Shown: positions 4,481-30,567 of the stretch, one piece after another
Layout of the letters: each line of letters opens with the position of its first letter
Numbering within the stretch: the first letter of the stretch is position 1
Source of the DNA: Pseudodesulfovibrio cashew
GTDB taxonomy: Bacteria; Desulfobacterota; Desulfovibrionia; Desulfovibrionales; Desulfovibrionaceae
Reading direction: 5' to 3'
Assembly: GCF_009762795.1 (NCBI RefSeq)
Contig: NZ_CP046400.1
Location: forward strand, 2,023,501 to 2,087,500
DNA length: 64,000 nt
The notes under the pieces: generated by a model
Databases searched by the model: none
What the model was told of the DNA's origin: nothing
Seen by the model: only the letters and a program-made list of their open reading frames with translations
Made by a program: the position numbers and the translations under genes

Positions 4481-5014
4481 ATGAGCAAAAAGATACTTAT
4501 TATTTCGGCAAGTCCCCGTAAGGACGGCAACTCCGACCTCCTGTGCGACGAGTTCATGCGTGGCGCGCAGCAGAGCGGCCATGATGTGGAGAAGATCCGA
4601 CTCTCGGAACGGCACATCAACTACTGCACCGGGTGTTGCTCCTGCGTCAGCGGGGGCGGAAAATGCGTCCAGAAGGACGACATGAACGACATCTTTCCCA
4701 AGGTGCTCGCCGCCGACGTCCTGGTTCTGGCCAGCCCGGTCTACTTCCGTTCCTTCAACGGTCAGATGAAGACCTTCATGGACAGGATCTGCCCTATTTA
4801 CTCCAGGATCCACGACACCGAGGTCTACTTCATCGTGTCCGCCGCTGGAGGAAGCATCCCCGTGGAAAGCACCTTCATGAGCTTTCGGGTCTTCACCGGC
4901 TGCCTGGACGTCGAGGAGAAGGGAACCCTCGCTGTCACCGGCATCTGGGACGCGGGCGGAGTCAAGGGAACGCGAACCCTCAAAGAAGCATTTGAGATGG
5001 GCGTCAATCCCTGA
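4481..5014 (+). CDS. Flavodoxin-fold NAD(P)H-dependent FMN reductase, cytosolic
   Basis: This 177-residue protein has the FMN-phosphate loop ISASPRKDGNSD at the N-terminus, the Cys-rich segment CTGCCSC at about residues 48-54 and the ASPVYF isoalloxazine-contact segment, all hallmarks of the iron-sulfur flavoprotein/NADPH-dependent FMN reductase superfamily common in anaerobes. The four clustered cysteines do not match the spacing of a classical [4Fe-4S] ISF, so cluster binding is open. It probably passes electrons from NAD(P)H or ferredoxin to a small acceptor. A Tat-exported paralogue follows at 5066. No strong Shine-Dalgarno is seen before ATG 4481. Confidence 0.85.
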   Translation: MSKKILIISASPRKDGNSDLLCDEFMRGAQQSGHDVEKIRLSERHINYCTGCCSCVSGGGKCVQKDDMNDIFPKVLAADVLVLASPVYFRSFNGQMKTFMDRICPIYSRIHDTEVYFIVSAAGGSIPVESTFMSFRVFTGCLDVEEKGTLAVTGIWDAGGVKGTRTLKEAFEMGVNP

Positions 5015-5065
5015 TTGTTTCGGGAAGATGCCCTCCCACTGCCGAACTAACCGGAGAGAGTGCCG

Positions 5066-5761
5066 ATGTCAGGCGAACACGAAAAAGCGAAGAGTGGGCG
5101 GACGCCGGTTTGCCCCGAGCGCCGCGAGTTGCTCAAAGCCGGCGTGGCAATGGCCGTCGCCCCGGTGATAGCCGGGATGTCCGCCGTCGCCACGCCTTCA
5201 AGGGCGCAGGCCTCCGCCGACAGGAAGAGCAAGAAGGTGCTCATCATCTCGGCCACCCCCAGGGAGGAAGGCAACTCCGACATCCTCTGTGACGAATTCA
5301 TGCGGGGCGCCAGGAAAGCCGGGCACGCCGTGGAGAAAATCCGGCTGTCGGAAAAGGACATCAACTTCTGCACCGGGTGCTGTTCCTGCATCTCCGATCC
5401 GGGCGCATGCGTCCAGGATGACGATATGGCGGAGATATTGGAGAAAGCCCTGGCCGCCGACGTCATGGTCCTGGCCAGTCCGGTCTATTTTCTCACGTTC
5501 AATGCGCGGATGAAGAACTTCATCGACCGATTCTGTCCCATCTATACCATGATCCGAGATCTGGACGTCTATTTCATCGCCTCGGCGGCGGGCGGCCAAC
5601 GATCGGTGGACAGCGTCGTCCATGGCTTCAGGGTATTCACCGGATGTCTTTATGGAGCCAGGGAGAAAGGGGTTGTCGCGGCCACTGGTGTCTGGGACGA
5701 GGGCGGCATCAGGGGATCCCGCGTTCTTCATGACGCCTACCAAATGGGTTTTGATGCCTGA
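5066..5761 (+). CDS. Flavodoxin-fold FMN reductase with twin-arginine signal
   Basis: The 231-residue product is a close paralogue of the gene at 4481 (same ISATPREEGNSDILCDEFM and CTGCCSC segments) with about 50 extra N-terminal residues that contain a twin-arginine motif (ERRELLKAG), a hydrophobic stretch and an AQA cleavage site. Tat export fits a protein that binds FMN before secretion. GGAGAG at 5053-5058 is seven bases before ATG 5066; the GTG at 5060 is too close to it. A GTG after AGGAAGAG at the mature-domain boundary might be a weak internal start. Its partner electron donor in the periplasm is unknown. Confidence 0.85.
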   Translation: MSGEHEKAKSGRTPVCPERRELLKAGVAMAVAPVIAGMSAVATPSRAQASADRKSKKVLIISATPREEGNSDILCDEFMRGARKAGHAVEKIRLSEKDINFCTGCCSCISDPGACVQDDDMAEILEKALAADVMVLASPVYFLTFNARMKNFIDRFCPIYTMIRDLDVYFIASAAGGQRSVDSVVHGFRVFTGCLYGAREKGVVAATGVWDEGGIRGSRVLHDAYQMGFDA

Positions 5762-5772
5762 GCGCAGGAGGA

Positions 5773-6153
5773 ATGGAGATGAAGGACAGCCTGTCTCGTC
5801 GGGATTTCATGGTAAAAGGGACCGTGGCACTTGGTGCGGCGGTCGCGTTTGAAGTAAGCGGGCTTGGCGGCAATGCAGTGCGGGCCGCTGAAGCCCTGGC
5901 CACGCAAGGAGCAAAGGAGAAAACCATGCCTCATATCAGCGTCAAGCTCTGGCCTGGCCGGTCGGAAGAAGACAAGAAGCGGCTCGCCGAAGCCATTGCC
6001 GAAGACGTCGTCAGGATTACAGGGTGCAGTGAGTCGTCCGTTTCGGTCTCCATTGAGGATGTCCCGTCGGAAGAGTGGAAAGAGAAGGTCTATGATCCGG
6101 AAATCCGGGGCAAGGAAGAATCTCTGTACAAGAAACCCGGATACTCGATGTAG
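5773..6153 (+). CDS. 4-oxalocrotonate tautomerase-like protein with Tat leader and internal start
   Basis: The 126-residue reading frame has a Tat-type leader (SRRDFMVKG, hydrophobic core, VRAAEA) and then, from residue 52, a complete tautomerase domain starting MPHISVKLWPG. In the 4-oxalocrotonate tautomerase family the catalytic base is the N-terminal proline exposed after Met removal. In the long form that proline is internal. The ATG at 5926 is preceded by AAGGAG (5914-5919) at ideal spacing, so translation from there would give a free Pro1. Either both forms are made or the leader is a recent addition. The domain is about 75 residues, a little longer than bacterial 4-OT (62). Confidence 0.78.
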   Translation: MEMKDSLSRRDFMVKGTVALGAAVAFEVSGLGGNAVRAAEALATQGAKEKTMPHISVKLWPGRSEEDKKRLAEAIAEDVVRITGCSESSVSVSIEDVPSEEWKEKVYDPEIRGKEESLYKKPGYSM

Positions 6154-6161
6154 GGGGAGCG

Positions 6162-7004
6162 ATGAAAATCATTCTGAATCGTTTGATGATTGTCTTTGGA
6201 ATCGCCGCGTGCGCTCTCATGGCATGCCTCGATTCGGGCGCGCTGGCATCGGACGGTCATGCGCTGCCCCTGTCGTCCATGAAGGTTGAGATTTCCTCGA
6301 ATGGGAAGACGGCAACGTTTCAGCTCTATGATACGGCGGCAGCCAGGGAGTTTTACAACCAGCTGCCGCTCGAACTGGACCTGACCAATTTCCGCGATGC
6401 CCAGTGGATGTTCTACCCGCCCGAGAAGCTGAACGTGAAGGCGAACGAAGCCTATCACGACGGGAAGAAGGGAGAGCTGAGCTACTACGCGCCCTGGGGC
6501 GACGTCTTCATGCTCTACAAGGATTTTTACGCGGGCGATGAAATGCACCGGCTGGGCATCGGCCTGAGCGGCGTCGACGATATTGCCGCGATGTCGGGCA
6601 GCGCCGTCATACGAAAGATGGAACCACTTGCAGAAGAAAAGGAACAAACCATGCAGATCACTGTCACCGCAAACGGAAGCGCCATTGTATATGAACTCAA
6701 CGACAGCCAGGCCTCCAAGGACCTTTACGCCCAACTGCCTCTGGAAATAGAAGTCGAGAATTACGGCAGCAATGAAAAGATATTCTATCCCCCCAAGAAG
6801 CTGAACACCTCCAATACGCCCCTGGTCAAGGGGGCCCAGCCGGGAACCCTGGCATACTACGCTCCGTGGGCCGACGTGGTCATGTTTTACGGCAGCTTCG
6901 GCTCGGCTTCGGGGCTGTATGAGCTGGGGCACGCCGTGAAAGGGACGGAAAGGATTCGCTCCCTGGGAGGCACCATTCGCATCGAGGCTGGTTCGTCCCG
7001 CTAG
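6162..7004 (+). CDS. Exported tandem cyclophilin-like protein
   Basis: The 280-residue product has a signal peptide (IAACALMACLDSGALA) and two homologous cyclophilin-like domains: about residues 38-155 (VEISSNGKTATFQLYD, LPLELDL, YYAPWGDVFMLY) and 164-275 (ITVTANGSAIVYELND, LPLEIEV, YYAPWADVVMFY). The second domain begins at an in-frame ATG (6651) with AAAGGA just upstream, so it looks like an independent gene fused in frame or a second product. The ATG at 6162 follows GGGGGAG and lies eight bases after the tautomerase stop. The family function is unknown; members co-occur with cupins and flavodoxin-like reductases. Confidence 0.75.
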   Translation: MKIILNRLMIVFGIAACALMACLDSGALASDGHALPLSSMKVEISSNGKTATFQLYDTAAAREFYNQLPLELDLTNFRDAQWMFYPPEKLNVKANEAYHDGKKGELSYYAPWGDVFMLYKDFYAGDEMHRLGIGLSGVDDIAAMSGSAVIRKMEPLAEEKEQTMQITVTANGSAIVYELNDSQASKDLYAQLPLEIEVENYGSNEKIFYPPKKLNTSNTPLVKGAQPGTLAYYAPWADVVMFYGSFGSASGLYELGHAVKGTERIRSLGGTIRIEAGSSR

Positions 7005-7029
7005 GCTCCGTTCTCCTTCGAGGCAGTCC

Positions 7030-7046
7030 GACCCCTTCGTGGGGTC
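7030..7046 (+). terminator. Short GC hairpin after the small redox operon
   Basis: A perfect 6-bp stem (GACCCC/GGGGTC) with a TTCGT loop lies 26 bases after the stop at 7004. There is no T-run after it, so it is only a possible weak or Rho-assisted end signal, or an mRNA 3' stabiliser. Confidence 0.35.
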
Positions 7047-7193
7047 ATGACAAACGGCTTCCGGGTCCGCCGTGGTTCCATGCCGCGCGGCCGCGCTATG
7101 CTTTTGTCTACGGTTATACCGTCTCTCGCCGCAGGCACCCAAAGTGACGAGAGGGGGTATGCTCTCACACAATGATCATTTCGAGGTTTTTCA

Positions 7194-9759
<2,566 letters not shown>

Positions 9760-19827: not shown

Positions 19828-22569
19828 TCAGTGCTCATGCGGCATACCGGCGAGCACCTTCTCGGGAAGGGCGGGCAGGCTGGTGACGCGGGCGCCGCAG
19901 GCGTTGCGGATTGCGTTGGTAATGGCCACATGCGGACTGGCGATGGGGCCTTCGCCCACGCCGGCGGCACCGAAGGGCCCCCACTGACGCGGCGTCTGGA
20001 TGTACGTGATCTCCAGATCGTCGGGGATGGCCGAGATGTACGGGAATCCCGCTCCGATCATGGTGGAGTGCTTCTTGATGTCCTCGAAGTCCTCGGTCAG
20101 GGCCAGGCCTATTCCCTGGGCCATGCAGCCCCATATCTGGCCGTCCGTTGCGAGCTTGTTGTTGATCTTGCCGATGTCTGCAATGCAGGACATGCGGTCC
20201 ACGCTCACCTTGCCGGTTGCCTTCTCCACCGTGATCTCGGCCAGGTGGACCACATACATATATACAAGGAAGGGATTACCCAGTCCCGTATCCGGGTCGC
20301 AGGGCACGCCGGGGATGCTGTAGGAACCGTCGTAGCGCAGGGGTTTGTCTGCAGCGACCATCTCGGCGCAGGTCATATAGGTGCCGTCATCCTTGCGGGC
20401 CGCGCCCATCAGGGCTTCGCAGGCGACGCGGATGGCTCCGCCCACGACAACCTGGGAGCGGGATGCCCCGGCCGGACCTGCGGGTGGCTGCTTGGCCGAA
20501 TCAGGCCAGCTGAACCGAATCTTCTCGGGGGGGACGCCCATGGCCAGCAGGGTCTCGTGAGCCGTGCCGACGGCGCCGATGTCCGCGCCCTGGCCGTGGT
20601 CCTCCCAGGAGGCACCTACGGTGACGCCGTCGTCCTCGTCATATTGCACGAAGACCTCTGCCTGCTCCACGCCGTCGCCGCCGCTGCCATATACGCCCAG
20701 GGCGATGCCGACGCCCTTGGCGTGAGTCGGTGTGGAACCGGCTTCGGCGCGCTTCTTGGCTTCTTCGTACTTGGGCCTCAGCGCGTCCAGCATCTCGGGC
20801 AGCGGGTATACGTCCGGCTCCTGGCCGGTGGGGGTGGTGGAGCCGGGGCGGTAACAGTTGGCGTACCGGAACTCCAGGGGGTCCATGTCCAGTGCCAGGG
20901 CGAGCTCATCCACCAGGGATTCCCCTGCAAAGTGGGCCTGCGGTCCGCCGAAGCCGCGGAAAGCCGCGCCCCAGGCGTGGTTCGTGGCCACGGTGCGGCC
21001 CATGCCACGGATGCTGGGGATGTCGTATCCCGCGCCGATGAACTGAATGCCGCGCCCGGTGAGGACGTCGGCCATTTCGCAGTAGGGGCCGTGGTCCACC
21101 ACGTAGTCGTGTTCCAGGGCAACGATGCGCCCGGTCTTCTTGTCTGCGGCCATGCGGGCGTTGACGTGGAAGGGAGAGCGCTTACCCGTGTAGGTCATCT
21201 GCTGGTAATAGTCATAGCAGAGGGAGACAGGGCGGCCGGTGGCCAGCACGGCGACACCGAGCAGAGCCTCCATGGTCGGGCTCAGCTTGTAGCCGAAGGT
21301 CCCGCCCATGGGGTTGGCGGCCAGCGCGATCTGCTCGGGTTTCAGACCAAGTCCCTCGGCGATCATCATGGCGTGCAGGTGCACGGCGATGGACTTGGAA
21401 TGAATGTGGAGCAGATCGTCATCGCCCATGTAGGCGAAGCCCACATCGGGCTCGATGGGCATGTGCGGCTGGCGGCTGGATCGGTATTCGCCGGAAACCA
21501 CGGCCACGTCATCCTGATCGAAGATGGGTGCGGGGTCGTCGCCCTTGATGAGCGGCTGTTCGAAATAGATGTTGGGCGTGCCCGGGTGAATTTCGAGGGC
21601 GTCGTCGGCCATGGCCGCTGCGGCGCTCATGTAGGCGGGCAACTGCTCCAGGTCCAGGCGGACCTTGGCAGCGGCGGCACGAGCCTCGGCTTCGGTGTCG
21701 GCGCAAACGATGGCCACGGCGTCGCCGTATTGGAAGACCTTTTCATCGCAGAGGATGGGACGCTCCCAGCCGTCGCCCTTGTGTCTGGGGCTGCATGCCA
21801 GGCCGAAGATGCGGTTCTTGCCCTTGACGTCCTTGGCAGTGAGTATGCAATGGACGCCGGGCATGTTCTCGGCCTCGGACGTGTCGATGCCGTTTATCTT
21901 CGCGTGGCTGACCTCAGCCTGGACCAGCGCAAGGCGAAGGGTTCCCGCAGGCATCTTGAGGCCGAGGTCCGCTCCGTAGTCCAGGGTGCCGGTCGCCTTG
22001 GCCACGGCCGTGGGGCGGGGGTAGGAGCTGCCCCAGATGCGGCCGTCTTCGGGCATGACGAAGTCGAGGCTCTCGGCAGGGGCTTCACCCCGGACCACCT
22101 TGGCTGCTTCCATGACCGCGTCCACCAGCGGCTTGTAGCCGGTGCAGCGGCAGGCGTTCTTGTGCTTCCGGAACCAGTCGCGCACTTCTTCGCGCGTGGG
22201 ATTGTCATTCTCGTTGAGCAGCCCTTTTGCCGAGACGATGAAGCCGGGGGAACAGAATCCGCACTGGGCGGCCCCGTGCTTGACCCAGGCCTGCTGGAGG
22301 GGGTCGAGGTTGTCGGGCTGGCCTATGCCTTCAATGGTGATGATGCAGGCTCCCTCGGGAACCCGTTTCATCTTGGTGACGCAGGAACGGACGACCTTGC
22401 CGTTGAGCATGACCGAACACGCGCCGCACTGGCCCTCTCCGCATCCGACCTTGGTGCCGGTCAATTCCAGGTGTTCCCGGAGCACGGTGGCCAGGGTAGT
22501 GGAAGGAGAACTCAGTACATACTGTTCAATTCCATTTACGATCAATTTTTTCTGTTGCAGTTTTTCCAT
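19828..22569 (-). CDS. mop: Molybdenum aldehyde oxidoreductase (Mop, xanthine oxidase family)
   Basis: The 913-residue protein is a single-chain enzyme closely resembling D. gigas Mop (907 residues). Residues 1-75 are a plant-type 2Fe-2S domain (CGEGQCGACSVMLNG), residues 80-160 the second 2Fe-2S domain (QCGFCSPGF, CRCTGYKPL), and the rest the molybdopterin-cytosine-dinucleotide domains, with GRGIQFIGAG, AFRGFGGPQ and the catalytic Glu in GVGEGP near the C-terminus. It oxidises aldehydes to acids and passes electrons to flavodoxin or ferredoxin; there is no FAD domain. The start at 22569 follows AAAGGAG; the 59-residue upstream extension is rejected. Confidence 0.95.
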   Translation of the reverse strand: MEKLQQKKLIVNGIEQYVLSSPSTTLATVLREHLELTGTKVGCGEGQCGACSVMLNGKVVRSCVTKMKRVPEGACIITIEGIGQPDNLDPLQQAWVKHGAAQCGFCSPGFIVSAKGLLNENDNPTREEVRDWFRKHKNACRCTGYKPLVDAVMEAAKVVRGEAPAESLDFVMPEDGRIWGSSYPRPTAVAKATGTLDYGADLGLKMPAGTLRLALVQAEVSHAKINGIDTSEAENMPGVHCILTAKDVKGKNRIFGLACSPRHKGDGWERPILCDEKVFQYGDAVAIVCADTEAEARAAAAKVRLDLEQLPAYMSAAAAMADDALEIHPGTPNIYFEQPLIKGDDPAPIFDQDDVAVVSGEYRSSRQPHMPIEPDVGFAYMGDDDLLHIHSKSIAVHLHAMMIAEGLGLKPEQIALAANPMGGTFGYKLSPTMEALLGVAVLATGRPVSLCYDYYQQMTYTGKRSPFHVNARMAADKKTGRIVALEHDYVVDHGPYCEMADVLTGRGIQFIGAGYDIPSIRGMGRTVATNHAWGAAFRGFGGPQAHFAGESLVDELALALDMDPLEFRYANCYRPGSTTPTGQEPDVYPLPEMLDALRPKYEEAKKRAEAGSTPTHAKGVGIALGVYGSGGDGVEQAEVFVQYDEDDGVTVGASWEDHGQGADIGAVGTAHETLLAMGVPPEKIRFSWPDSAKQPPAGPAGASRSQVVVGGAIRVACEALMGAARKDDGTYMTCAEMVAADKPLRYDGSYSIPGVPCDPDTGLGNPFLVYMYVVHLAEITVEKATGKVSVDRMSCIADIGKINNKLATDGQIWGCMAQGIGLALTEDFEDIKKHSTMIGAGFPYISAIPDDLEITYIQTPRQWGPFGAAGVGEGPIASPHVAITNAIRNACGARVTSLPALPEKVLAGMPHEH

Positions 22570-22596
22570 GTGCGCAACTCCTTTTATGCTCACATG

Positions 22597-22612
22597 AGCA
22601 CAATGCGTGCCG
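22597..22612 (-). promoter_or_regulatory. Probable sigma-54 promoter of mop
   Basis: Minus-strand CGGCAC-N5-GTGCT keeps the essential GG and GC at the right 12-base distance. The match is weaker than at aor but the position (about 28 bases before the ATG) and the upstream shared motif at 22712 support it. Confidence 0.5.
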
Positions 22613-22711
22613 TTGGCGTTCTTGCAAGCTATCCATATTTTATAATTGGAGAAGTTGATATAGTGAGAATTTCTATGTAAAGCTGGAGGCCTTAACTGCT
22701 TTACGGTGTCT

Positions 22712-22730
22712 ATACATGTAAATGTACAGT
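22712..22730. promoter_or_regulatory. Candidate enhancer (UAS) upstream of mop
   Basis: The near-palindrome TACATGTAAATGTACA shares the 11-mer ACATGTAAATG with the aor upstream site at 19650-19660. It lies about 100 bases upstream of the -24 element, fitting binding of the AcoR-like activator. Confidence 0.5.
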
Positions 22731-22821
22731 TGACACTTTTCATCACGGGGTATGCATGAAGGTGTAACCGCTTAACGGCCCGGGGAGTTGGTGGTTCGGA
22801 GCGGCGAAAGAGGGTGGCTCC

Positions 22822-22905: not shown

Positions 22906-22958
22906 CAAAGAAAAACCGCCCCCGCCGCGCATGAGTCTTCGGGCGCGGCGGGGGCGGT
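22906..22958 (-). terminator. Intrinsic terminator of the ureide operon
   Basis: A 16-bp perfect GC stem (22915-22930 with 22943-22958) is followed on the minus strand by TTTTTCTTT, the classic Rho-independent form. It begins 15 bases after the allE stop codon and ends the seven-gene operon running from 29025. Confidence 0.92.
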
Positions 22959-22972
22959 CGTTTCAGGCTGGA

Positions 22973-23752
22973 CTAGATCGCTTCGTCGCGGTGGCAGTCC
23001 TTGGAGTAGATATACTCCATGCGTTCCAGGCCGGTGCCGTAGCAGGCCTGCTTGCAGAAGGGGGCGATCCAGATGAAATCGCCGGACTCGACGGGCAGCC
23101 AGGCCTCGTCGAGGAGGTAGAGGCCCTGGCCCTGGTAGACGTACATGCCGTGCTCCTGGACGTGGGTCTCCACGAAGGGATGGCAGCCGCCGGGCAGGAA
23201 GGCGAGGGTGTGGAAGTTCATGTCAAAGGCCTCGTCAACAGGCAGCAGGTCGCGGACGAAGACGTTCTCCATCTGGTCGTAGTAGCTCTCCTCGATTTTG
23301 CGGATGGAGCCGCAGACCACCCAGGGCTGTTTCATGGCCGGGTCGGGGTGGGGGATGAAACGCTGCTTGTAAAGGAGGATGGTGACCGGGGCGTCGCCCT
23401 TTGAGGCGAAGTCGATCCCCTTGCCGGGCGGGGAGTAGATGTAGCCGCCCGCGGTCAGGGTCTCGGTTTGGCCGTCCACGGTGACGTCCAGGGAGCCCTC
23501 GCCGTCCATGACGAAGAGGAGCGTCTCTATGTTTTCGGCCTGGCCGTAGGGCATGGTCGTCCGGCCCTCGGTGGAGACCGTGCCGACCATCTGCACGAAG
23601 TTGGCCCCGAGCTTGGGCGAGGCCAGGATGGACAGGGCGCAGCCCGTGATGCCGGGGACCACGTTGATGACGCGCCCCTCGGTGGTGATGACGGCATATT
23701 TTCCGGGCTCGTACGAGGACCGGTTTTTCAGGAATCCTTCGGGATAAGGCAT
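22973..23752 (-). CDS. allE: (S)-ureidoglycine aminohydrolase
   Basis: A 259-residue bicupin. It resembles E. coli AllE (YlbA, 261 residues) along its length: ILASPKLGANFVQ, GGYIYSPPG, FDMNFHTLAFLPGG, ETHVQEHGMYVYQGQGLYLLD and the C-terminal IYSKDCHRD. The Mn-binding residues of the C-terminal cupin (Glu, His, His/Gln in the ETHVQEHG region) are present. The enzyme releases ammonia from (S)-ureidoglycine to give (S)-ureidoglycolate, the step after allantoate amidohydrolase. It is the last gene of the operon. Confidence in the family is high because the AllE fold and motifs are distinctive. Confidence 0.92.
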   Translation of the reverse strand: MPYPEGFLKNRSSYEPGKYAVITTEGRVINVVPGITGCALSILASPKLGANFVQMVGTVSTEGRTTMPYGQAENIETLLFVMDGEGSLDVTVDGQTETLTAGGYIYSPPGKGIDFASKGDAPVTILLYKQRFIPHPDPAMKQPWVVCGSIRKIEESYYDQMENVFVRDLLPVDEAFDMNFHTLAFLPGGCHPFVETHVQEHGMYVYQGQGLYLLDEAWLPVESGDFIWIAPFCKQACYGTGLERMEYIYSKDCHRDEAI

Positions 23753-23794
23753 GCAATACCTCGTGGTATCATTCGTCGGCCTGCTTGATGGGCC

Positions 23795-23828
23795 GGCGGC
23801 AGGGGGGAGGTCGTTTCCCCCTGCCGCC
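23795..23828 (-). repeat. Intercistronic hairpin between KARI-like gene and allE
   Basis: A 12-bp stem (GGCGGCAGGGGG with CCCCCTGCCGCC) lies in the 87-base gap between the two genes. It lacks a T-run, so mRNA stabilisation or processing is more likely than termination. Confidence 0.5.
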
Positions 23829-23839
23829 AGGATAGTCTG

Positions 23840-24835
23840 CTATTTGCCGAACTTCTCGCGCCAGATTTCGCCGGTCTGCTCCATGTCGGAGTCGGCCCAG
23901 GTGCGGCGCATGCGGTTCAGGGTCGGCATGCCCAGGGAGAACTCCTGGAGCCAGTTGCGGGCGAAGATGCCGCGCTCGGTTTCCTCGAAGATCTCCTGCA
24001 TGGCCTCCTCGTTGATGACGCGGGGGCCGCTGTGGCGCACCGCGAACTCGCAGGTTCGGCTCGCCCGGGAGGTAAGATACGCCTCGATGCCCACGGCGTC
24101 GATATCGTCGATGATGGAGCGGATGGAGCGGATCGCCTTGGCGTAGGCAAAGGAGCGGGGGTACCCGTTCTTGACCATGATGTTGTACATGGTGCGCATC
24201 AGGTGGATGGTTCCGCCGTACAGCACCTGCTCCTCGTAGTTGTCGCCCTCGGTTTCGTGCTGAAAGGTCATGTCCACCACGCCGACACGGGTGGAGCCCA
24301 CGGCCTTGGAGATGGCCAGGGCGGTCTCACGGGCGTTGCCGCTGACGTCCTGGTCCACGCTGACACAGCCCCAGATGCCGGAGCCGTCCTTGAACTTCTG
24401 GCGGGTGACCGGGCCGGGGCCGTTGGGCACGAACAGGACCACGTCGATGTCCTTGGGCGGCTTGATGGTGCCGTAGAGCACGGCGAAGCCATGGGCGAAA
24501 CTCAGGGTCTGGCCGGGCTTGAGGTGGCCGTGGATGGACTCGTAGTAGACCGAGGGCTGGGCCGGGTCCTGGAGCAGGATGTGGACGATGTCCGCCTTTT
24601 CCACGGCTTCCTCGATGGGATAGACCGTGAAGCCGTCGGCCTCGGCCTTGTCCCAGCTGGAGTGGCGGGTGCGGTCGCCCGCGCCGACGATGATGTTCAT
24701 GCCGGACTCGCGCATGTTCATGGACTGGGCGCGGCCCTGACTGCCGTAGCCGATGACGGCGATGGTCTTGCCTTCCAGGATGCTCAGGTCCACGTCCTCG
24801 TCACGGTAGATTTTCTCGAATTCGATTTCGCTCAT
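23840..24835 (-). CDS. Ketol-acid reductoisomerase-like protein lacking isomerase residues
   Basis: The 331-residue protein has class I KARI architecture. Residues 1-185 form the NAD(P) domain (IAVIGYGSQGRAQ, FAHGFAVLYG, VDQDVSG), then the knotted helical domain (ETEGDNYEEQVLYGG). Against remembered KARI sequences, the first metal-ligand pair (Asp and Glu of TDLFGEQ) is kept as GDNYEEQ. The second pair (the Glu residues of YFE..HELK) is replaced in YAKAIRSIRS, and the active-site Lys of APK is Asn (VPNGPG). It therefore probably does not make branched-chain amino acids and may be a plain 2-hydroxy/2-keto acid oxidoreductase. It sits between allC-like and allE genes in one operon. Start follows AAGGA. 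Confidence 0.85.
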   Translation of the reverse strand: MSEIEFEKIYRDEDVDLSILEGKTIAVIGYGSQGRAQSMNMRESGMNIIVGAGDRTRHSSWDKAEADGFTVYPIEEAVEKADIVHILLQDPAQPSVYYESIHGHLKPGQTLSFAHGFAVLYGTIKPPKDIDVVLFVPNGPGPVTRQKFKDGSGIWGCVSVDQDVSGNARETALAISKAVGSTRVGVVDMTFQHETEGDNYEEQVLYGGTIHLMRTMYNIMVKNGYPRSFAYAKAIRSIRSIIDDIDAVGIEAYLTSRASRTCEFAVRHSGPRVINEEAMQEIFEETERGIFARNWLQEFSLGMPTLNRMRRTWADSDMEQTGEIWREKFGK

Positions 24836-24866
24836 GTTCTATCCTTCTTTATCTGTATTGTGTCGT

Positions 24867-26126
24867 TTACTCCGGAGCGGCGTAGGTCACGCTCTCGGGA
24901 TCGTTGGCGGTCTTGAGGATGCAGTTGAGGAGCACGTCGGCCCCTGCGGCGCAGTCGGCCCAGGAGGTCTCCTCGACCTCGGCGTGGCTGCGGCCGCCGA
25001 TGCTGGGCACGAATATCATGGCGCTGGGGGCGAACTGGTTGATGTACACGGTGTCGTGGGACGCCCCGGAGACCATGTCCAGCGCGGGCAGGTCCAGCTC
25101 CCCTGCGACCTCGTGGATCAGGGAGACCAGCTCCGGGTGGAACGGGGCGCGCTCCACGGCCCAGGTCTGGCGGATCTCCACGGTGCAGCCCGTGGCCTCG
25201 GCGTTGGCCCGGATGGCCGCCTCGATCTCCTCGCAGACGCGGTCGGTCTCGGTTTCGTCCCAGCCCCGGATGTCGATGGTGAAATGGACGTGGCCCGCGA
25301 TGACGTTGCGCGAGTTGGGGGAGGGGTGCACCTCGCCCACGGTGGCGACCACGCCGTCCGAGGCCAGACCGATGTCGAAGACCCGCCCGGCCATGCGCGA
25401 GAAGGCGTAGATGGCGTCCTGACGCTCGTCCATGGGCGTGGGCCCGGCGTGGTTGGGCACGCCCTGGATCTCCACGTCGTACCAGCGCAGGCAGACGATG
25501 CCCTTGGGCACGCCGATGGTCTTGCCCCGGCGCTCCAGCACTGGTCCCTGCTCGATGTGGTATTCGAAATTGGCGTGCAACGGCCTCGGGTCGAAGTCGT
25601 CCCCGCCCTTGTAGCCGATGCGCTCCAGCTCCGCCCCGAAGGTCAGGCCGTCGCGGTCGGTCAGGCCGTACATGGCCTCGCGGTCCAGCTTGCCCGCGAA
25701 CACGCCCGAGCCCGTGGTGCCGGGAGTGAAGCGGCTGCCTTCCTCGTTGGTCCAGTTGACCACGATGAGGTCCCGCTCCAGGGTCACGCCCGCATCATTC
25801 AGGGCGCAGACCGCCTCCAGCCCGCCGATGATGCCGAGGATGCCGTCGAAACGCCCCCCCTGCGGCTGCGAGTCGCAATGGGACCCGGTCATGACCGGCG
25901 CCAGGGCACGGTTTCTGCCCGGCCGAATGAAAAACATGTTGCCCATGCGGTCGATCCGGGTCTCGCACCCCGCTTCCTCGAACCACTCCCTGAGCCGGTC
26001 CCGCGCGTCGCGGTCCTCGTCGCTCAATGCCAAACGGGTCACCCCGCCGTTGGCCGTGGCCCCGAAAGCCGCGATCTCCGTCAGAAACCGCTCCAGCCGC
26101 TCGGGGTTGGTGTGTATCGCGTTCAT
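24867..26126 (-). CDS. allC: Allantoate amidohydrolase / N-carbamoyl amino acid hydrolase family
   Basis: A 419-residue M20-type amidohydrolase. Two-metal site residues are visible in GSHCDSQPQGGRFDG (His, Asp), TNEEGSRF (Glu), HIEQGP (His) and GRSHAEVEE (His). The family also contains L-carbamoylases and beta-ureidopropionase, which cannot be separated by eye. Allantoate amidohydrolase is preferred because allE lies in the same operon: AllC turns allantoate into (S)-ureidoglycine, ammonia and CO2. The upstream ABC importer would bring in a small charged ureide. It ends 31 bases before the KARI-like gene start. Confidence 0.82.
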   Translation of the reverse strand: MNAIHTNPERLERFLTEIAAFGATANGGVTRLALSDEDRDARDRLREWFEEAGCETRIDRMGNMFFIRPGRNRALAPVMTGSHCDSQPQGGRFDGILGIIGGLEAVCALNDAGVTLERDLIVVNWTNEEGSRFTPGTTGSGVFAGKLDREAMYGLTDRDGLTFGAELERIGYKGGDDFDPRPLHANFEYHIEQGPVLERRGKTIGVPKGIVCLRWYDVEIQGVPNHAGPTPMDERQDAIYAFSRMAGRVFDIGLASDGVVATVGEVHPSPNSRNVIAGHVHFTIDIRGWDETETDRVCEEIEAAIRANAEATGCTVEIRQTWAVERAPFHPELVSLIHEVAGELDLPALDMVSGASHDTVYINQFAPSAMIFVPSIGGRSHAEVEETSWADCAAGADVLLNCILKTANDPESVTYAAPE

Positions 26127-26146
26127 GGTCTTCCTGCTGTTGTAGG

Positions 26147-26875
26147 TTAGTCGATGGCCCTGATGAACGAGGCCAGTTCCGGGGTCGACGGGTCGGCAAA
26201 GAGTTGCTTGGGGTCGCCCTGCTCGTGGACCTTGCCCTGGTGCATGAAGATGAGCTTGTTGCCGACCTCGCGGGCAAAGCGCATCTCGTGCGTGACCATG
26301 ATGAGGGTCATGCCCTCCTCGGCCAGTTTGCGCACGACCTCCAGGACCTCGCCCACGAGCTCCGGGTCCAGCGCCGAGGTGATCTCGTCGCAGAGAAGGA
26401 CCTTGGGCTGCATGGCCAGGGACCGGGCAATGGCGACGCGCTGCTGCTGGCCGCCCGAAAGCTGGTCGGGGTAGGCGTCGAACTTGTCTCCGAGGCCGAC
26501 CCGGGAGAGCATCTCCTCTGCCAGGGCCCGGACCTCTTGTTTCCCCATCTTCTTGACCTGTTGGGGGGCGAGCATGACGTTCTCCCCTGCGGTCAGGTGC
26601 GGGAACAGGTTGAACTGCTGGAACACCATGCCCACCTTGAGGCGCAGGTCCCTGAGGTCCTTTTCCATGCCCGTCCTGCGGTCGCCGTCGATGATCAGTA
26701 TGCCGTCATCGAAGGATTCCAGGCCGTTGATGATCCTGAGCAGGGTGCTCTTGCCGGATCCGCTGCGGCCTATAATGGCCACGACTTCGCCTTCCTTGAC
26801 CTTGAGGTCGACTCCCTTGAGCACCTCGTTGTCGCCAAAACTCTTGTGAATGCCCTCAGCGGCTACAAGCGGCAT
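26147..26875 (-). CDS. Polar amino acid-type ABC transporter ATP-binding protein
   Basis: A 242-residue ATPase of the GlnQ/HisP type. Walker A is GRSGSGKST, the Q-loop MVFQQFNLFP, the signature LSGGQQQRVAIARSLA, Walker B KVLLCDEITSALD, and the switch His in VTHEM. It drives import through the two adjacent permeases. It overlaps the upstream permease gene by 20 bases (translational coupling). The transported substrate is probably a ureide or amino acid, judged by the downstream enzymes. Confidence 0.95.
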   Translation of the reverse strand: MPLVAAEGIHKSFGDNEVLKGVDLKVKEGEVVAIIGRSGSGKSTLLRIINGLESFDDGILIIDGDRRTGMEKDLRDLRLKVGMVFQQFNLFPHLTAGENVMLAPQQVKKMGKQEVRALAEEMLSRVGLGDKFDAYPDQLSGGQQQRVAIARSLAMQPKVLLCDEITSALDPELVGEVLEVVRKLAEEGMTLIMVTHEMRFAREVGNKLIFMHQGKVHEQGDPKQLFADPSTPELASFIRAID

Positions 26876-27512
26876 GGAGCCTCCTTTCTATCTGTCTGGC
26901 CAGGGCCGACAGGGGAAAACAGATGATGAAGTACCCAACAGCGACCAGGCCGTACACGAGCAGCGGTCTGAACGTCGCGTTTGAGATCATGGAACCCGTC
27001 TTGGTTATTTCCATGAAACCGATGATCGAAGTGACTGCGGTCCCCTTGACGACCTGGACGGAGAATCCCACGGTCGGGGGGATGGCGATGCGGACGGCCT
27101 GCGGCAGGATGACGAAGCGCATCTGCTGCCATCGGCTCAGGGCGAGGCTCTCTCCGGCTTCCCATTGGCCGTGGGCGATGGATTCGACGCACCCTCGCCA
27201 GATTTCGGCCAGGTAGGCGCTGGTGAATAGCGTCAGCCCCAGGGCTGCGGTCAGCAGCGGCGAGATGTCTACGCCCAACAGCCCGATGCCGAAAAAGATC
27301 AGGAAGAGCTGCATCAGCAGCGGGGTGTCCTGGAAGAATTCGATGTAGGCCTTGGCCAGCCTGGCGAACAGGGGGCGGGGCGATATGCGGGCGATGAGCA
27401 CCATCAGGCCGACGATGCCGCCGGAAATGAAGGCGATCAGGGAGAGCGCCACGGTCCACGCGCCGCCGACAAGCAGGTGCCGGATGATGTCCCAAAGGGA
27501 AAATTCGATCAT
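26856..27512 (-). CDS. Amino acid-type ABC transporter permease (second)
   Basis: A 218-residue HisMQ-type permease with five hydrophobic helices and the EAA loop GESLALSRWQQMRFVILPQAVRIAIPP. The N-terminus has the typical GGAWTVALSLIAF and FFQDTPLLMQL segments. It starts inside the stop of the first permease (ATGA overlap at 27509-27512), so the two are made as a pair and form a heterodimer in the inner membrane. Confidence 0.93.
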   Translation of the reverse strand: MIEFSLWDIIRHLLVGGAWTVALSLIAFISGGIVGLMVLIARISPRPLFARLAKAYIEFFQDTPLLMQLFLIFFGIGLLGVDISPLLTAALGLTLFTSAYLAEIWRGCVESIAHGQWEAGESLALSRWQQMRFVILPQAVRIAIPPTVGFSVQVVKGTAVTSIIGFMEITKTGSMISNATFRPLLVYGLVAVGYFIICFPLSALARQIERRLHAACSR

Positions 27513-28177
27513 GCCGTCCTCCCGTCGATGTAGCGCCGTCCTATTTCATGCAGGAACTTGCGGACCGCCAAGGCCAGCAAGAGATACATGAGCGTGCTGA
27601 ATGCGTAGATCTCGAATGCCCGGAAGGTCCGGGACTGGATGAGATTGGCCGCATAAGTCAGCTCCTGCGCCGCGACCTGGGAGCAGACCGCCGAACCGAG
27701 CATGACGATGATGACCTGGCTGCACAGGGCCGGCCAGACGTTTTTCAGGGCGGGCCGGAGAATGACGAAACGGAAAGTCTGCCACCTGCTCAGGGCCAGA
27801 GATTCGGCCGCTTCCAGTTGTCCCCTCGGGACGGACATGACCCCTGCGCGGATGATCTCGGTGGAATACGCGCCGAGATTGAGCGCCATGGCCAGGAAAG
27901 AGGCCTCCCAACCGCTCAGCTTCACACCCATGGCGGGCAGGCCGAAGAAGATGAAATAGAGTTGGACGAGGAAGGGAGTGTTTCGGATGCACTCCACATA
28001 TACCGTATAAACGGGATACAGCACCCTCAGCTTCCAGGCCCGGGAGACCGCGCCCAGGATGCCGGCCGCGATCCCGATCGCCGACCCGAGTCCGGTCAGC
28101 AGAAGGGTCATCAGCGCTCCTTCGACGAACACTTCCCAGTTGCTGATGATCGGCTCTATGGAAAATTGATAGGACAT
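27509..28177 (-). CDS. Amino acid-type ABC transporter permease (first)
   Basis: A 222-residue HisMQ-type permease: NWEVFVEGALMTLLLT, CIRNTPFLVQLYF and the EAA loop AAESLALSRWQTFRFVILRPALKNVWPAL. The start at the ATG of MSYQF (28177) follows AAGGCG; the longer reading from 28261 runs into the binding-protein gene. A strong hairpin in the 50-base gap upstream probably lowers read-through from the binding-protein gene, giving the usual excess of binding protein. Confidence 0.92.
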   Translation of the reverse strand: MSYQFSIEPIISNWEVFVEGALMTLLLTGLGSAIGIAAGILGAVSRAWKLRVLYPVYTVYVECIRNTPFLVQLYFIFFGLPAMGVKLSGWEASFLAMALNLGAYSTEIIRAGVMSVPRGQLEAAESLALSRWQTFRFVILRPALKNVWPALCSQVIIVMLGSAVCSQVAAQELTYAANLIQSRTFRAFEIYAFSTLMYLLLALAVRKFLHEIGRRYIDGRTA

Positions 28178-28192
28178 TGTTTGCGCCTTGGC

Positions 28193-28218
28193 GGGGCGGG
28201 AGGCCAGCCTCCCGCCCC
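28193..28218 (-). repeat. Intercistronic hairpin after the binding-protein gene
   Basis: A 12-bp perfect stem (GGGGCGGGAGGC with GCCTCCCGCCCC) with a two-base loop. Its place between binding-protein and permease genes is typical of an mRNA-stabilising or attenuating hairpin. Confidence 0.6.
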
Positions 28219-28227
28219 GGATGGTTG

Positions 28228-29025
28228 CTACAGGTTTTCGGGCAGGGGGTTGTGCAGCCACTTCTCGGAGATCTTGCCGAGGGAGCCGTCCTTCTTGGCG
28301 TCGGCGATGATGGCGTTGACCCGGGCCATGAGCGCGGGCTGTTCCTTGGCCAGACCGACGTAGCAGGGGGAGTTCTTGATCATGAATTTGGTCTCAAGCA
28401 TCTTGGCGGGCTTCTTCTCGTTGATGGAAGCGGCCACGACGTTGCCGGTAGCGACCAGGTCCACCTGGCCGGACTGGTAAGCGGTGATGGTGGAGCTGTT
28501 GTCCTCGAAGCGTTTGATAACGGTGGACTTGGGGGCGATCTTGGTCAGCTCCAGGTCCTCGATGGAGCCGCGGGTAACGGCGACGGTCTTGCCTTCCAGG
28601 TCGGCTGCGCTGCCGATCTTTTCGTCAGCGGTGCCGAAGACGCCGTTGAAGAACGGGGCGTAGGCGTCGGAAAAGTCGATGACCGCAGCGCGCTTGGGGT
28701 TTTTGCCCAGCGAGGAGATGACCAGGTCCACCTTGCCCGTGGTCAGGTAGGGGATGCGGTTGGTGCTGGTGACCGGGACCAGCACGACCTTGACGCCGAG
28801 CTTGGAGGCGATCAGCGAGGCCATGTCGATGTCGTAGCCGATGGGCTGCATGTCCGAGCCCACGGAGCCGAACGGCGGAAAGTCCTGGGGAACGGCGACC
28901 TTGAGGACGCCGGAATCCTTGACCTGGGCCAGGGTGTCGGAAGCCATGGCAGGGGCCGCCGTAAGAACGGCGGTCAGCGCAAACGCGAGCGCCAGGGTGC
29001 AGATGGTGCGAATTGTGGTTTTCAT
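28228..29025 (-). CDS. Periplasmic solute-binding protein, polar amino acid type (SBP family 3)
   Basis: A 265-residue family 3 binding protein with a Sec signal (LTAAPAMA, cleavage before SDTLAQ). Typical segments: VLKVAVPQDFPPFG, PIGYDIDMASLIASKLG, LTTGKVDLVISSLGKNPKR and GKTVAVTRGSIEDL. It captures the imported compound in the periplasm; the downstream allC/allE genes suggest allantoate or a related ureide rather than a standard amino acid, but this cannot be read from the residues. The ATG at 29025 has GGAGAG upstream. It is the first gene of the operon and faces the divergent FadR-type regulator. Confidence 0.93.
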   Translation of the reverse strand: MKTTIRTICTLALAFALTAVLTAAPAMASDTLAQVKDSGVLKVAVPQDFPPFGSVGSDMQPIGYDIDMASLIASKLGVKVVLVPVTSTNRIPYLTTGKVDLVISSLGKNPKRAAVIDFSDAYAPFFNGVFGTADEKIGSAADLEGKTVAVTRGSIEDLELTKIAPKSTVIKRFEDNSSTITAYQSGQVDLVATGNVVAASINEKKPAKMLETKFMIKNSPCYVGLAKEQPALMARVNAIIADAKKDGSLGKISEKWLHNPLPENL

Positions 29026-29071
29026 GTTCTCTCTCCAATTGATGTTACGGTAAAACGGTGTTTTTGACCAG

Positions 29072-29084
29072 CCGGTAAGACCGG
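29072..29084. promoter_or_regulatory. FadR/GntR-type operator near the binding-protein gene
   Basis: CCGGT-AAG-ACCGG is a perfect 5-3-5 inverted repeat in the leader or promoter of the transporter operon. It has the same centre and arm length as the site at 29257-29271, as expected for the GntR-type regulator encoded next door. Confidence 0.7.
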
Positions 29085-29256
29085 TAAGTCTTTGGTGGTA
29101 CATATTGCTGATATTGTCAATGTGGAAAATTAATTCTCTAAAAATTTATATTAAATTTACAAAAAAAGGAAAACTAGCGATAAAACTACAATAATGTAGA
29201 GCATAAAAAAAGAAGTGGACAGAATATTACTGCCTGTGGTTTAGATGGGTAGGTAG

Positions 29257-29356: not shown

Positions 29357-30037
29357 ATGTCGCGATCTGATGAAGCAGTGGAAAGCATCGAGGCCATGAT
29401 CGCGGAAAATGGCTGGACCGGAGGAGTCCAGTTGCCTTCCCAGCGCACGTTGGCCGAGAAGCTGCCGTTCAGCAGGCCGACCATTCGCGAGGCGCTGGTC
29501 GCCCTGGAGACCATGGGGCGGGTGGAGATCAAACCCGGCAAGGGAGCCTTCCTGGTGGACAAGGATTCCCCGGCCCCGATCAGGGCAGTCTGGTCGGATC
29601 GCCTGACGCTCTCCGGCCGCGAGTCGCAGATGTATCAATTCCGATATGCCATCGAACCTGCCATCGCCGGGCTGGTGGCCGTCAACGCAACTGCGGCGCA
29701 GATCGAGGATATGACCGTCGGAGTCGAAGCCATGCGCCTTGCCGTCGGAGAAAAGGATCACGCCGAGTTTTCACGGCTGGACTTCGCCTTTCATTCCCAG
29801 ATGATAGAGGCGGCCAATAACCGCTTCTTCACAGAGGCTCTGACGCCTTTCTTCGGCTTGTTTTTCGAGAGCCAGAAACTCCCGCTGGAATATGACGAGA
29901 GCGTGGAGGATACGGTACGCGAGCATGAGGAAATCATCCGGCATATTCGGGCTAGGCGCTCGGCCGAGTCGCGGCACGCCATGGAACAGCACATCAAGGG
30001 CGTGGCCAGGCGGGCCGGGGTGAATCTCGTCGAGTAG
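29357..30037 (+). CDS. GntR family transcriptional regulator, FadR subfamily
   Basis: A 226-residue regulator. The N-terminal winged helix has LPSQRTLAEKLPFSRPTIREALVALETMGRVEIKPGKG, and the C-terminal all-helical FCD ligand domain has metal-type His residues (FAFHSQMIEAANNRFF, EHEEIIRHI). FCD regulators bind carboxylic acids. Its divergent position and the two palindromes in between strongly suggest that it controls the ureide operon, probably as a repressor relieved by a pathway acid. Start follows AAGGGAG. Confidence 0.93.
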   Translation: MSRSDEAVESIEAMIAENGWTGGVQLPSQRTLAEKLPFSRPTIREALVALETMGRVEIKPGKGAFLVDKDSPAPIRAVWSDRLTLSGRESQMYQFRYAIEPAIAGLVAVNATAAQIEDMTVGVEAMRLAVGEKDHAEFSRLDFAFHSQMIEAANNRFFTEALTPFFGLFFESQKLPLEYDESVEDTVREHEEIIRHIRARRSAESRHAMEQHIKGVARRAGVNLVE

Positions 30038-30120
30038 GAGAATGGGAACCGGTTGAACACAATTTTCTGTCCATAGGGTCGATGGAAAGCAGGCCGCCGG
30101 GAGCGGCCGAAGGAGTTCTC

Positions 30121-30567
30121 ATGAGTAATCCGATCAAGATCGGCATTGTAATCTGTGACCGCTACCGGAGCTGCGCCGGGGGCAAATGCCTTCGCGCCAT
30201 GCGGGAGCGGGAAGGCGCGTTCTCGGCATATGAAGGAAAGGAAGTGGAGTTGGTGGGATACACATCCTGCAACGGTTGTCCCGGCGGCAACGTCGAGTAT
30301 CTCGGTGACGAGATGGTCAAGAACGGCGTCGACGTCATTCACCTGGCGACAGGCTTGATCGTCGGCTACCCGCCCTGTCCGCACATAGGTACCTTCAAGT
30401 CGTTTCTGGAAGACCGCTACGGGATCAAGGTTGTGGTCGGGACCCACCCCATCCCGGAAAAGTATCTGACCACCCATACGAAGCTTGGCTCCTGGGAAGC
30501 CCCGGAGTGGCAACCTGTCCTTTCCGCAGCCATGTCGGACGAGGCGACCCGCAAGGCATACGATTAG
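30121..30567 (+). CDS. CGGC-domain protein
   Basis: A 148-residue protein with the CGGC domain, rich in conserved cysteines: VICDRYRSCAGGKC near the N-terminus, SCNGCPGG in the middle (the name-giving motif in permuted spacing) and PPCPHIG later. Members are common in anaerobes and are thought to bind metal or iron-sulfur; the function is not established. The start at 30121 follows AAGGAG. It may share a transcript with the FadR-type regulator (83-base gap). Confidence 0.78.
   Translation: MSNPIKIGIVICDRYRSCAGGKCLRAMREREGAFSAYEGKEVELVGYTSCNGCPGGNVEYLGDEMVKNGVDVIHLATGLIVGYPPCPHIGTFKSFLEDRYGIKVVVGTHPIPEKYLTTHTKLGSWEAPEWQPVLSAAMSDEATRKAYD

Follow-up and report, generated by a model that had tools for sequence, protein, structure and literature searches.

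A ketol-acid reductoisomerase homologue of bacterial ureide operons as a predicted ureidoglycolate dehydrogenase

Why should an operon for ureide breakdown carry a homologue of ketol-acid reductoisomerase (KARI) where the ureidoglycolate dehydrogenase AllD is expected? The question is raised by a stretch of 64,000 nucleotides from Pseudodesulfovibrio cashew (contig NZ_CP046400.1, positions 2,023,501 to 2,087,500 of the forward strand; hereafter "the window"), in which a minus-strand operon encodes a periplasmic binding protein, two ATP-binding cassette (ABC) permeases, an ABC transporter ATPase, an AllC-like amidohydrolase, a KARI-like protein, and AllE (Table 1). All seven genes are present in the order given by the original prediction, which had been made from the DNA letters, and the 16-bp hairpin with a T-run that was said to close the operon is a perfect stem. 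The same prediction had the KARI-like protein replace AllD as a dehydrogenase, and this is supported by our survey and by the altered active site. We consider it probable that this protein works with NAD(P) as a 2-hydroxyacid dehydrogenase and, in place of the unrelated AllD, oxidizes (S)-ureidoglycolate to oxalurate; the substrate, direction, and cofactor that we infer for this reaction come from gene context.

The operon had been described as lacking both AllD and a lyase, and the absence extends to the whole genome (one contig, 3.91 Mb, listed as 100% complete): neither the AllD family (PF02615, Ldh_2) nor the AllA/ureidoglycolate lyase family (PF04115) was found at E 0.001, with E. coli as the positive control. 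The identification of AllE was also borne out, with 320.9 bits on the curated model TIGR03214 (cut-off 200), and its ExHxxxH...Q motif, presumably the metal-ligand set as in the plant enzyme UGLYAH, recurs in 39 of 39 AllE matches of related loci. The AllC-like protein scores 492 bits on the "allantoate amidohydrolase" subfamily model NF006769 (cut-off 452) and 262.6 bits on the E. coli AllC equivalog TIGR03176 (cut-off 597.75). In addition to two KARI-like genes, the genome contains one canonical KARI, which retains the Lys, Glu, and Glu discussed below, and a fourth KARI_N match of 66 residues (29 bits). Because a canonical KARI is retained, the KARI-like copy is dispensable for valine.

The KARI-like protein belongs to the ketol-acid reductoisomerase fold family. 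It matches the Pfam domains KARI_N (199 bits) and KARI_C (85 bits) and passes TIGR00465 (290.9 bits versus a cut-off of 226.15), and it falls slightly below the threshold of the KARI equivalog PRK05479 (326.1 versus 336 bits). Its predicted structure (predicted local distance difference test, pLDDT, 88) has only KARIs among the 50 PDB matches listed, and among these it aligns with solved KARI structures over the full length at 33–41% identity. In a tree of 44 KARI-like and 18 canonical sequences, from which a 139-residue fragment (locus L049) was excluded, the KARI-like clade is split from the canonical enzymes with 100/100 support by a branch of length 1.84.

For the survey of active-site residues, 45 KARI-like sequences (one of them the fragment, which was also kept out of the list of invariant columns) were aligned with the 18 canonical sequences. 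L086–L091, which are refetches of genes in L014, L050, L055, L054, L035, and L053, were excluded, and the alignment was made apart from the KARI-like genes of the family survey described below. The active-site lysine of KARI, which we take to be Lys130 in the numbering of P. aeruginosa, is Asn in 44 of 44 KARI-like sequences and Lys in all 18 canonical ones. The His and Ser at the positions that we take to be catalytic in KARI are retained across the KARI-like sequences. According to the part of PMC8615647 consulted, MtKARI holds its first magnesium on Glu195 and Asp191 and the second on Asp191 and Glu231; Glu227 lies some way off. In this numbering, Asp191 and Glu195 are retained in every sequence aligned, both KARI-like and canonical; Glu227 is replaced by Lys and Glu231 by Ser in 45 of 45 KARI-like sequences, and both are Glu in 18 of 18 canonical sequences. 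Eight KARI-like genes from the family survey were checked, and all eight have the Asn, Lys, and Ser motifs. No member of the clade deviates at the nucleotide-binding glycines, at the catalytic His, or at either first-site acid, and new basic residues, namely Lys233, Arg236, Arg239, Arg260, and Arg267 of the window protein, are likewise invariant. Judged from these residues, the dinuclear magnesium site of the KARI enzyme is not intact in the KARI-like clade, its second site having been lost. Because the second-magnesium glutamate, the nearby glutamate, and the lysine are all gone, acetolactate isomerization is unlikely.

The residues also bear on the simplest alternative, that the protein is an ordinary ketol-acid reductoisomerase lying in this operon by chance: it does pass TIGR00465, so that an automatic pipeline would probably label it ilvC. 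Every aligned member, however, has other residues in place of both second-metal-region glutamates and of the lysine, the sequences form one clade spread over many phyla, and a canonical KARI is encoded elsewhere in the genome; this idea is therefore scarcely credible, and we reject it on the residue survey and the tree.

How general is the association with ureide genes? A species-wide scan, in which the neighbours played no part, took the C-terminal halves of three KARI-like proteins as its query and covered one genome per species (84,980 species). Relatives are encoded at 42 of its 64 pattern matches; members without both peptide patterns would escape it. With two loci from the same family (L012 and L013), 44 loci were obtained, carrying at least eight phylum labels, and genes in the fetched stretches were called by tblastn (E ≤ 1e-6), the queries being proteins of the window and of E. 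coli. The KARI-like gene has AllE as a neighbour in 39 of the 44 loci, AllC in 33, AllB in 29, and carbamate kinase in 6; the E. coli AllD, AllA, AllF, AllG, and AllH queries matched in 0 of 44 stretches. Among the loci without AllE, a contig ends close to the KARI-like gene in L029 and L033, and L045 and L049 lie on contigs of 3.1 and 5.9 kb, in which AllB and AllC are unmatched too. Clusters of open reading frames (ORFs) read as uricase occur in 14 of the 44 loci and those read as HIUase in 16 (one member of each was confirmed), mostly in Planctomycetota and Spirochaetota; several loci therefore look like urate-to-ureidoglycolate clusters. On plasmids, a tblastn search with the KARI-like protein returned 118 records, all below 60% identity and at about 37–41% among the 20 matches listed.

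A reverse survey was made in the taxonomic family of the window (288 genomes), because a draw of 392 Planctomycetota genomes contained the KARI-like gene at E ≤ 1e-115 in just one, its own centre genome. In both surveys scoring was limited to the best 5–7 first-look candidates of each genome, and misses are possible. In the family, 25 genomes have AllE and 14 the KARI-like gene, every one of these 14 being among the 25 (hypergeometric P about 2e-17, with related genomes treated as independent). A neighbourhood survey of this kind had been proposed with the original prediction, and its outcome is that the KARI-like gene is associated with allE, in most of the 44 loci and in 14 of 14 family genomes. 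Of the 11 family genomes with AllE in which the KARI-like gene is unmatched, two have AllD: G884 carries allC, allE, allD, allF, allG, and allK together, and G960 (54% complete) has divergent allE and allD genes on a 3.9-kb contig. Beside allE, AllD and the KARI-like gene appear to take each other's place. The KARI-like gene is likewise unmatched in G961, where AllE is divergent and accompanied by an AllB-like gene, and in G1075, a fragment at a contig end.

The genome of P. cashew itself contains the module twice. A block from the start of allC to just beyond the terminator (Table 1) is repeated elsewhere, and because the near-identity runs without gaps through all three genes and the terminator, the module was evidently duplicated as one unit. 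The two KARI-like proteins are identical, and the AllE proteins differ by one residue and the AllC proteins by four. The second operon reads, in order, a GntR/FCD regulator, an ABC importer with a TOBE-type ATPase, a racemase of the Asp/Glu/hydantoin family (PF01177, 199.6 bits), allantoinase (TIGR03178, 399 bits versus a cut-off of 358), AllC, the KARI-like protein, and AllE; the racemase may act on allantoin. Since the window operon has an importer and lacks an allantoinase, allantoate is probably what it imports.

How could a reductoisomerase become a dehydrogenase of ureidoglycolate? In KARI, the isomerization of acetolactate needs a two-metal site, and the resulting 2-keto acid is then reduced by NADPH at C2. 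The ancestor of the KARI-like protein would have been an ordinary KARI, and the oxidation of ureidoglycolate to oxalurate would be the second half-reaction of that enzyme run in reverse at the same carbon. Because only the isomerization needs the paired magnesium and the lysine, the second-site acids and the lysine would have been free to disappear, and the retained nucleotide fold, His, and first-site acids suggest that hydride chemistry at C2 was kept while isomerization was lost. The product of KARI is (2R)-dihydroxyisovalerate, and a ureido group in place of its side chain swaps the Cahn–Ingold–Prelog ranks. (S)-Ureidoglycolate is therefore spatially like the KARI product at C2, and the face for hydride transfer would be unchanged. 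Oxalurate is N-carbamoyl-oxamate. PDB entry 6bul is, by its title, a KARI with a hydroxyoxamate inhibitor. In the proposed route, the window operon would import a ureide, most likely allantoate; from it AllC and AllE would make (S)-ureidoglycolate, with ammonia set free; and the KARI-like protein would oxidize this product. The sister operon would follow the same route starting from allantoin.

The fate of oxalurate offers a further view of the pathway. In E. coli, as described in the part of PMC11326118 consulted, AllFGH and AllK turn oxalurate into oxamate, carbamoyl phosphate, and ATP. Nine of the 44 KARI-like loci, in Clostridia, Synergistota, Chloroflexota, and one Spirochaete, carry carbamoyltransferase-family genes, which by alignment resemble aspartate carbamoyltransferase (ATCase) in 6 loci and ornithine carbamoyltransferase (OTCase) or acetylornithine carbamoyltransferase in 7; the three that were scanned all fall below every curated cut-off. 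Five of the six loci with an ATCase-like gene also have carbamate kinase. Because carbamoyltransferases and carbamate kinase occur in the clusters of some anaerobes, oxalurate fits as the product of the KARI-like enzyme. The ATCase-like proteins are candidate oxamate carbamoyltransferases unrelated to AllFGH; in some anaerobes they would phosphorolyse oxalurate, and carbamate kinase would then yield ATP. We tentatively suggest, as a possibility slightly short of even, that there is a second lower ureide pathway of independent origin, in which a KARI has become a ureidoglycolate dehydrogenase and, in some anaerobes, an ATCase-like enzyme has become an oxamate carbamoyltransferase feeding carbamate kinase, unrelated enzymes thus taking the place of both AllD and AllFGH.

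Several observations weigh against the dehydrogenase reading or loosen it. The original prediction expected a distinct KARI clade near allE and allC, always without allD; the clade is distinct and allD is unmatched in all the loci examined, but the tie to allE is looser than "always". Locus L018 has the KARI-like gene, allB, and allC, with AllE nowhere on its 30-kb contig, and the adjoining glycine-decarboxylase genes hint at other chemistry there. In seven family genomes AllE stands alone and the KARI-like gene is missing. In four of them, G990, G994, G1024, and G1031 (loci L141, L144, L147, and L143), 3' remnants of the KARI-like gene lie upstream of allE, with just 18 and 25 residues left in G990 and G1031. 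These remnants indicate that the KARI-like gene was lost more than once and that AllE can outlive it, which speaks against strict interdependence; AllE can thus be useful without the KARI-like protein, and it may have a further role. The AllE gene is broken into two pieces in the KARI-like genome G1014.

The other points against it concern cofactor, competing enzymes, and the end of the pathway. The cofactor-selectivity loop varies in length and sequence within the clade, so NAD and NADP cannot be told apart. For a count of Ldh_2 genes, we followed 21 of the 42 scan loci back to their complete genome entries; G109 and G335 bring the number of genomes to 23. The PF04115 lyase occurs in 0 of these 23 further KARI-like genomes, and each has two KARI_N genes, of which all 17 second copies fetched are canonical. 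Some Ldh_2 gene is present in 11 of the 21 genomes; this family also takes in malate and sulfolactate dehydrogenases, and none of the 10 Ldh_2 places scanned (of 16) passes the AllD cut-off of 356 bits, which the E. coli AllD control passes with 713. One of them, in G402, fits the AllD models best, with 323 bits, and is ambiguous. In P. cashew, AllG (PF06545) is absent from the genome, with E. coli as the positive control, and the two carbamoyltransferase-family genes are an ordinary OTCase and ATCase above their curated cut-offs; for these reasons no known oxalurate consumer was found there, and the end of the pathway after oxalurate is unexplained in this genome. The idea that AllFGH are encoded elsewhere in it was rejected for AllG; AllF and AllH were sought in the fetched loci.

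In a first alternative, the KARI-like protein reduces glyoxylate, or another small 2-keto acid, with glyoxylate arising, along with urea, from the spontaneous decay of ureidoglycolate and being reduced to glycolate. The spontaneous decay to glyoxylate is described in the part of PMC3793230 consulted; Streptomyces KARIs show promiscuous reductase activity (PMC4353338, in part); and no lyase, AllG, or unusual carbamoyltransferase was found in the genome of the window. We nevertheless regard glyoxylate reduction as unlikely: it would make a catabolic pathway depend on a slow spontaneous step, and it leaves unexplained both the AllD beside AllE in two sister genomes and the carbamate kinase and carbamoyltransferases in the clusters of some anaerobes.

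A second alternative is suggested by L018, where glycine decarboxylase genes directly follow the KARI-like gene on the contig lacking AllE, and by the glycine-cleavage genes that L052 has as well. In this case the KARI-like protein would be an imine reductase, turning an imine derived from ureidoglycine into glycine or hydantoate, and Streptomyces KARIs do reduce the imine pyrroline-5-carboxylate, according to the part of PMC4353338 consulted. The glycine decarboxylase cluster occurs, however, in just 2 of the 44 loci, and AllE, which diverts ureidoglycine to ureidoglycolate, is present in 39 of them with its ExHxxxH...Q motif, so that we hold an imine reductase to be quite unlikely.

It is also conceivable that the protein has no redox role and is either a ureidoglycolate lyase or a scaffold, the latter channelling unstable intermediates on the way between AllC and AllE. 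The loss of the metal site and the lysine and the new invariant Lys and Arg residues could mean that catalysis was lost, AllA was not found, and the duplication took in all three genes together. The invariant nucleotide-binding glycines, catalytic His, and both first-site acids would be superfluous for a scaffold or a lyase, and we consider such a role very improbable.

Table 1. Positions of the genes and other features discussed, in the window unless a locus is named.
Feature	Location	Strand	Basis or remark
Periplasmic binding protein, family 3	28228-29103	-	PF00497
ABC permease	27509-28261	-	Profile scores
ABC permease	26856-27512	-	Profile scores
ABC transporter ATPase, polar amino acid type	26147-26875	-	Profile scores
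AllC-like M20 amidohydrolase, allantoate amidohydrolase subfamily	24867-26126	-	NF006769
KARI-like protein, 331 aa, proposed (S)-ureidoglycolate dehydrogenase	23840-24835	-	Pfam KARI_N/KARI_C, residues, tree, predicted fold
AllE, (S)-ureidoglycine aminohydrolase, bicupin	22973-23752	-	TIGR03214; 1rc6/1sef homologues
Intrinsic terminator	22915-22958	-	Perfect 16-bp stem, 12-base loop, T-run
allC-KARI-allE-terminator block	22906-26126	-	Second genomic copy, 3221 bp, 99.0% identity, no gaps
Divergent GntR/FCD regulator	29357-30037	+	Domain match
ATCase-like carbamoyltransferases	L017:1325-2338, L046:7243-8235, L053:2896-3894, also L019, L052, L054		L017 and L046 scanned, below cut-offs

Some details of the window operon should be added. 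The start of the binding protein is more likely the ATG at 29025, which gives a better predicted signal peptide, and together with the permeases and the ATPase this protein forms a probable ureide importer. Our terminator scan did not list the closing hairpin because it takes loops of 3–8 bases only. The GntR/FCD regulator beside the operon is found in the relatives L012, L013, L016, L152, and L158 also. Just past the terminator lies a gene for a molybdopterin aldehyde oxidoreductase (19828–22746, minus strand; NF045668, 1552 bits), and downstream of the regulator is one for a small CGGC-domain protein (30082–30567, plus strand).

The related loci show variations around AllC and its neighbours. 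AllC and OHCU decarboxylase (TIGR03164) are joined in one protein in L025 (2862–4580), as confirmed by a family scan, and the long AllC ORFs of L020, L024, and L040 may, judging by their length, be the same fusion. An ArgE/DapE-family M20 hydrolase lies upstream of allE in L052 (5745–6962; this locus was scanned), and its ORF cluster has the same position in L032, L053, and L054; this hydrolase perhaps stands in for AllC in those Chloroflexota loci without an AllC match. In the Pirellulaceae locus L042, the KARI-like gene is followed at 7455–8657 by an M20 hydrolase that resembles YgeY but scores below the cut-off. The ORF cluster of this hydrolase, which is a possible oxalurate hydrolase, recurs in L044, L045, L047, and L049. 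In L018, the two glycine decarboxylase subunit genes occupy 4749–8742.

How does the proposed enzyme compare with known systems? Like class I KARI (IlvC, EC 1.1.1.86), the KARI-like protein has a Rossmann and a knot domain and retains the His, Asp, Glu, and Ser; unlike it, the protein has Asn, Lys, and Ser for Lys, Glu227, and Glu231 and sits in ureide clusters. It resembles AllD (EC 1.1.1.154) in its proposed reaction and in its position beside allC and allE, whereas its KARI fold is unrelated to the Ldh_2 (L-sulfolactate dehydrogenase-like) fold of AllD. With the oxamate branch of E. coli (AllB, AllC, AllE, AllD, AllFGH, and AllK) the loci share AllB, AllC, AllE, and, in 6 of 44, AllK homologues, and they differ from it in that AllD, AllF, AllG, and AllH are unmatched in all 44; the KARI-like protein and, in 9 of 44 loci, the ATCase/OTCase-family carbamoyltransferases may stand in for AllD and AllFGH. 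The Streptomyces KARI paralogues, as far as the part of PMC4353338 consulted describes them, are likewise duplicated KARIs with an altered substrate range. Those of S. coelicolor and S. lividans share 97% identity with their partners, and all rescued ilvC mutants (same source), whereas the KARI-like clade is divergent and without the second metal site.

Among the open-licence PMC papers listed by our searches, judged by title and the start of the abstract, we found no link between a reductoisomerase and ureide breakdown, and a paywalled report is possible; PMC5041015, in the part consulted, has both reductoisomerase and ureide terms in its reference list only and makes no link. What is predicted here is a known reaction for a known fold, a pairing for which no prior description was found in the literature so searched.

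If the prediction is true, the loss of one metal site would have made a catabolic dehydrogenase out of a bifunctional biosynthetic enzyme, and the KARI-like clade would be a natural example of the separation of the two half-reactions of KARI. The ATCase-like partner would be a candidate oxamate carbamoyltransferase outside AllFGH. Automatic annotations as "ketol-acid reductoisomerase", which misstate the capacity for branched-chain amino acids, would be corrected. Finally, the enzyme would fill a gap in the recovery of purine nitrogen in those sulfate reducers, Planctomycetes, Spirochaetes, and Chloroflexi whose AllE has no adjoining AllD or lyase.

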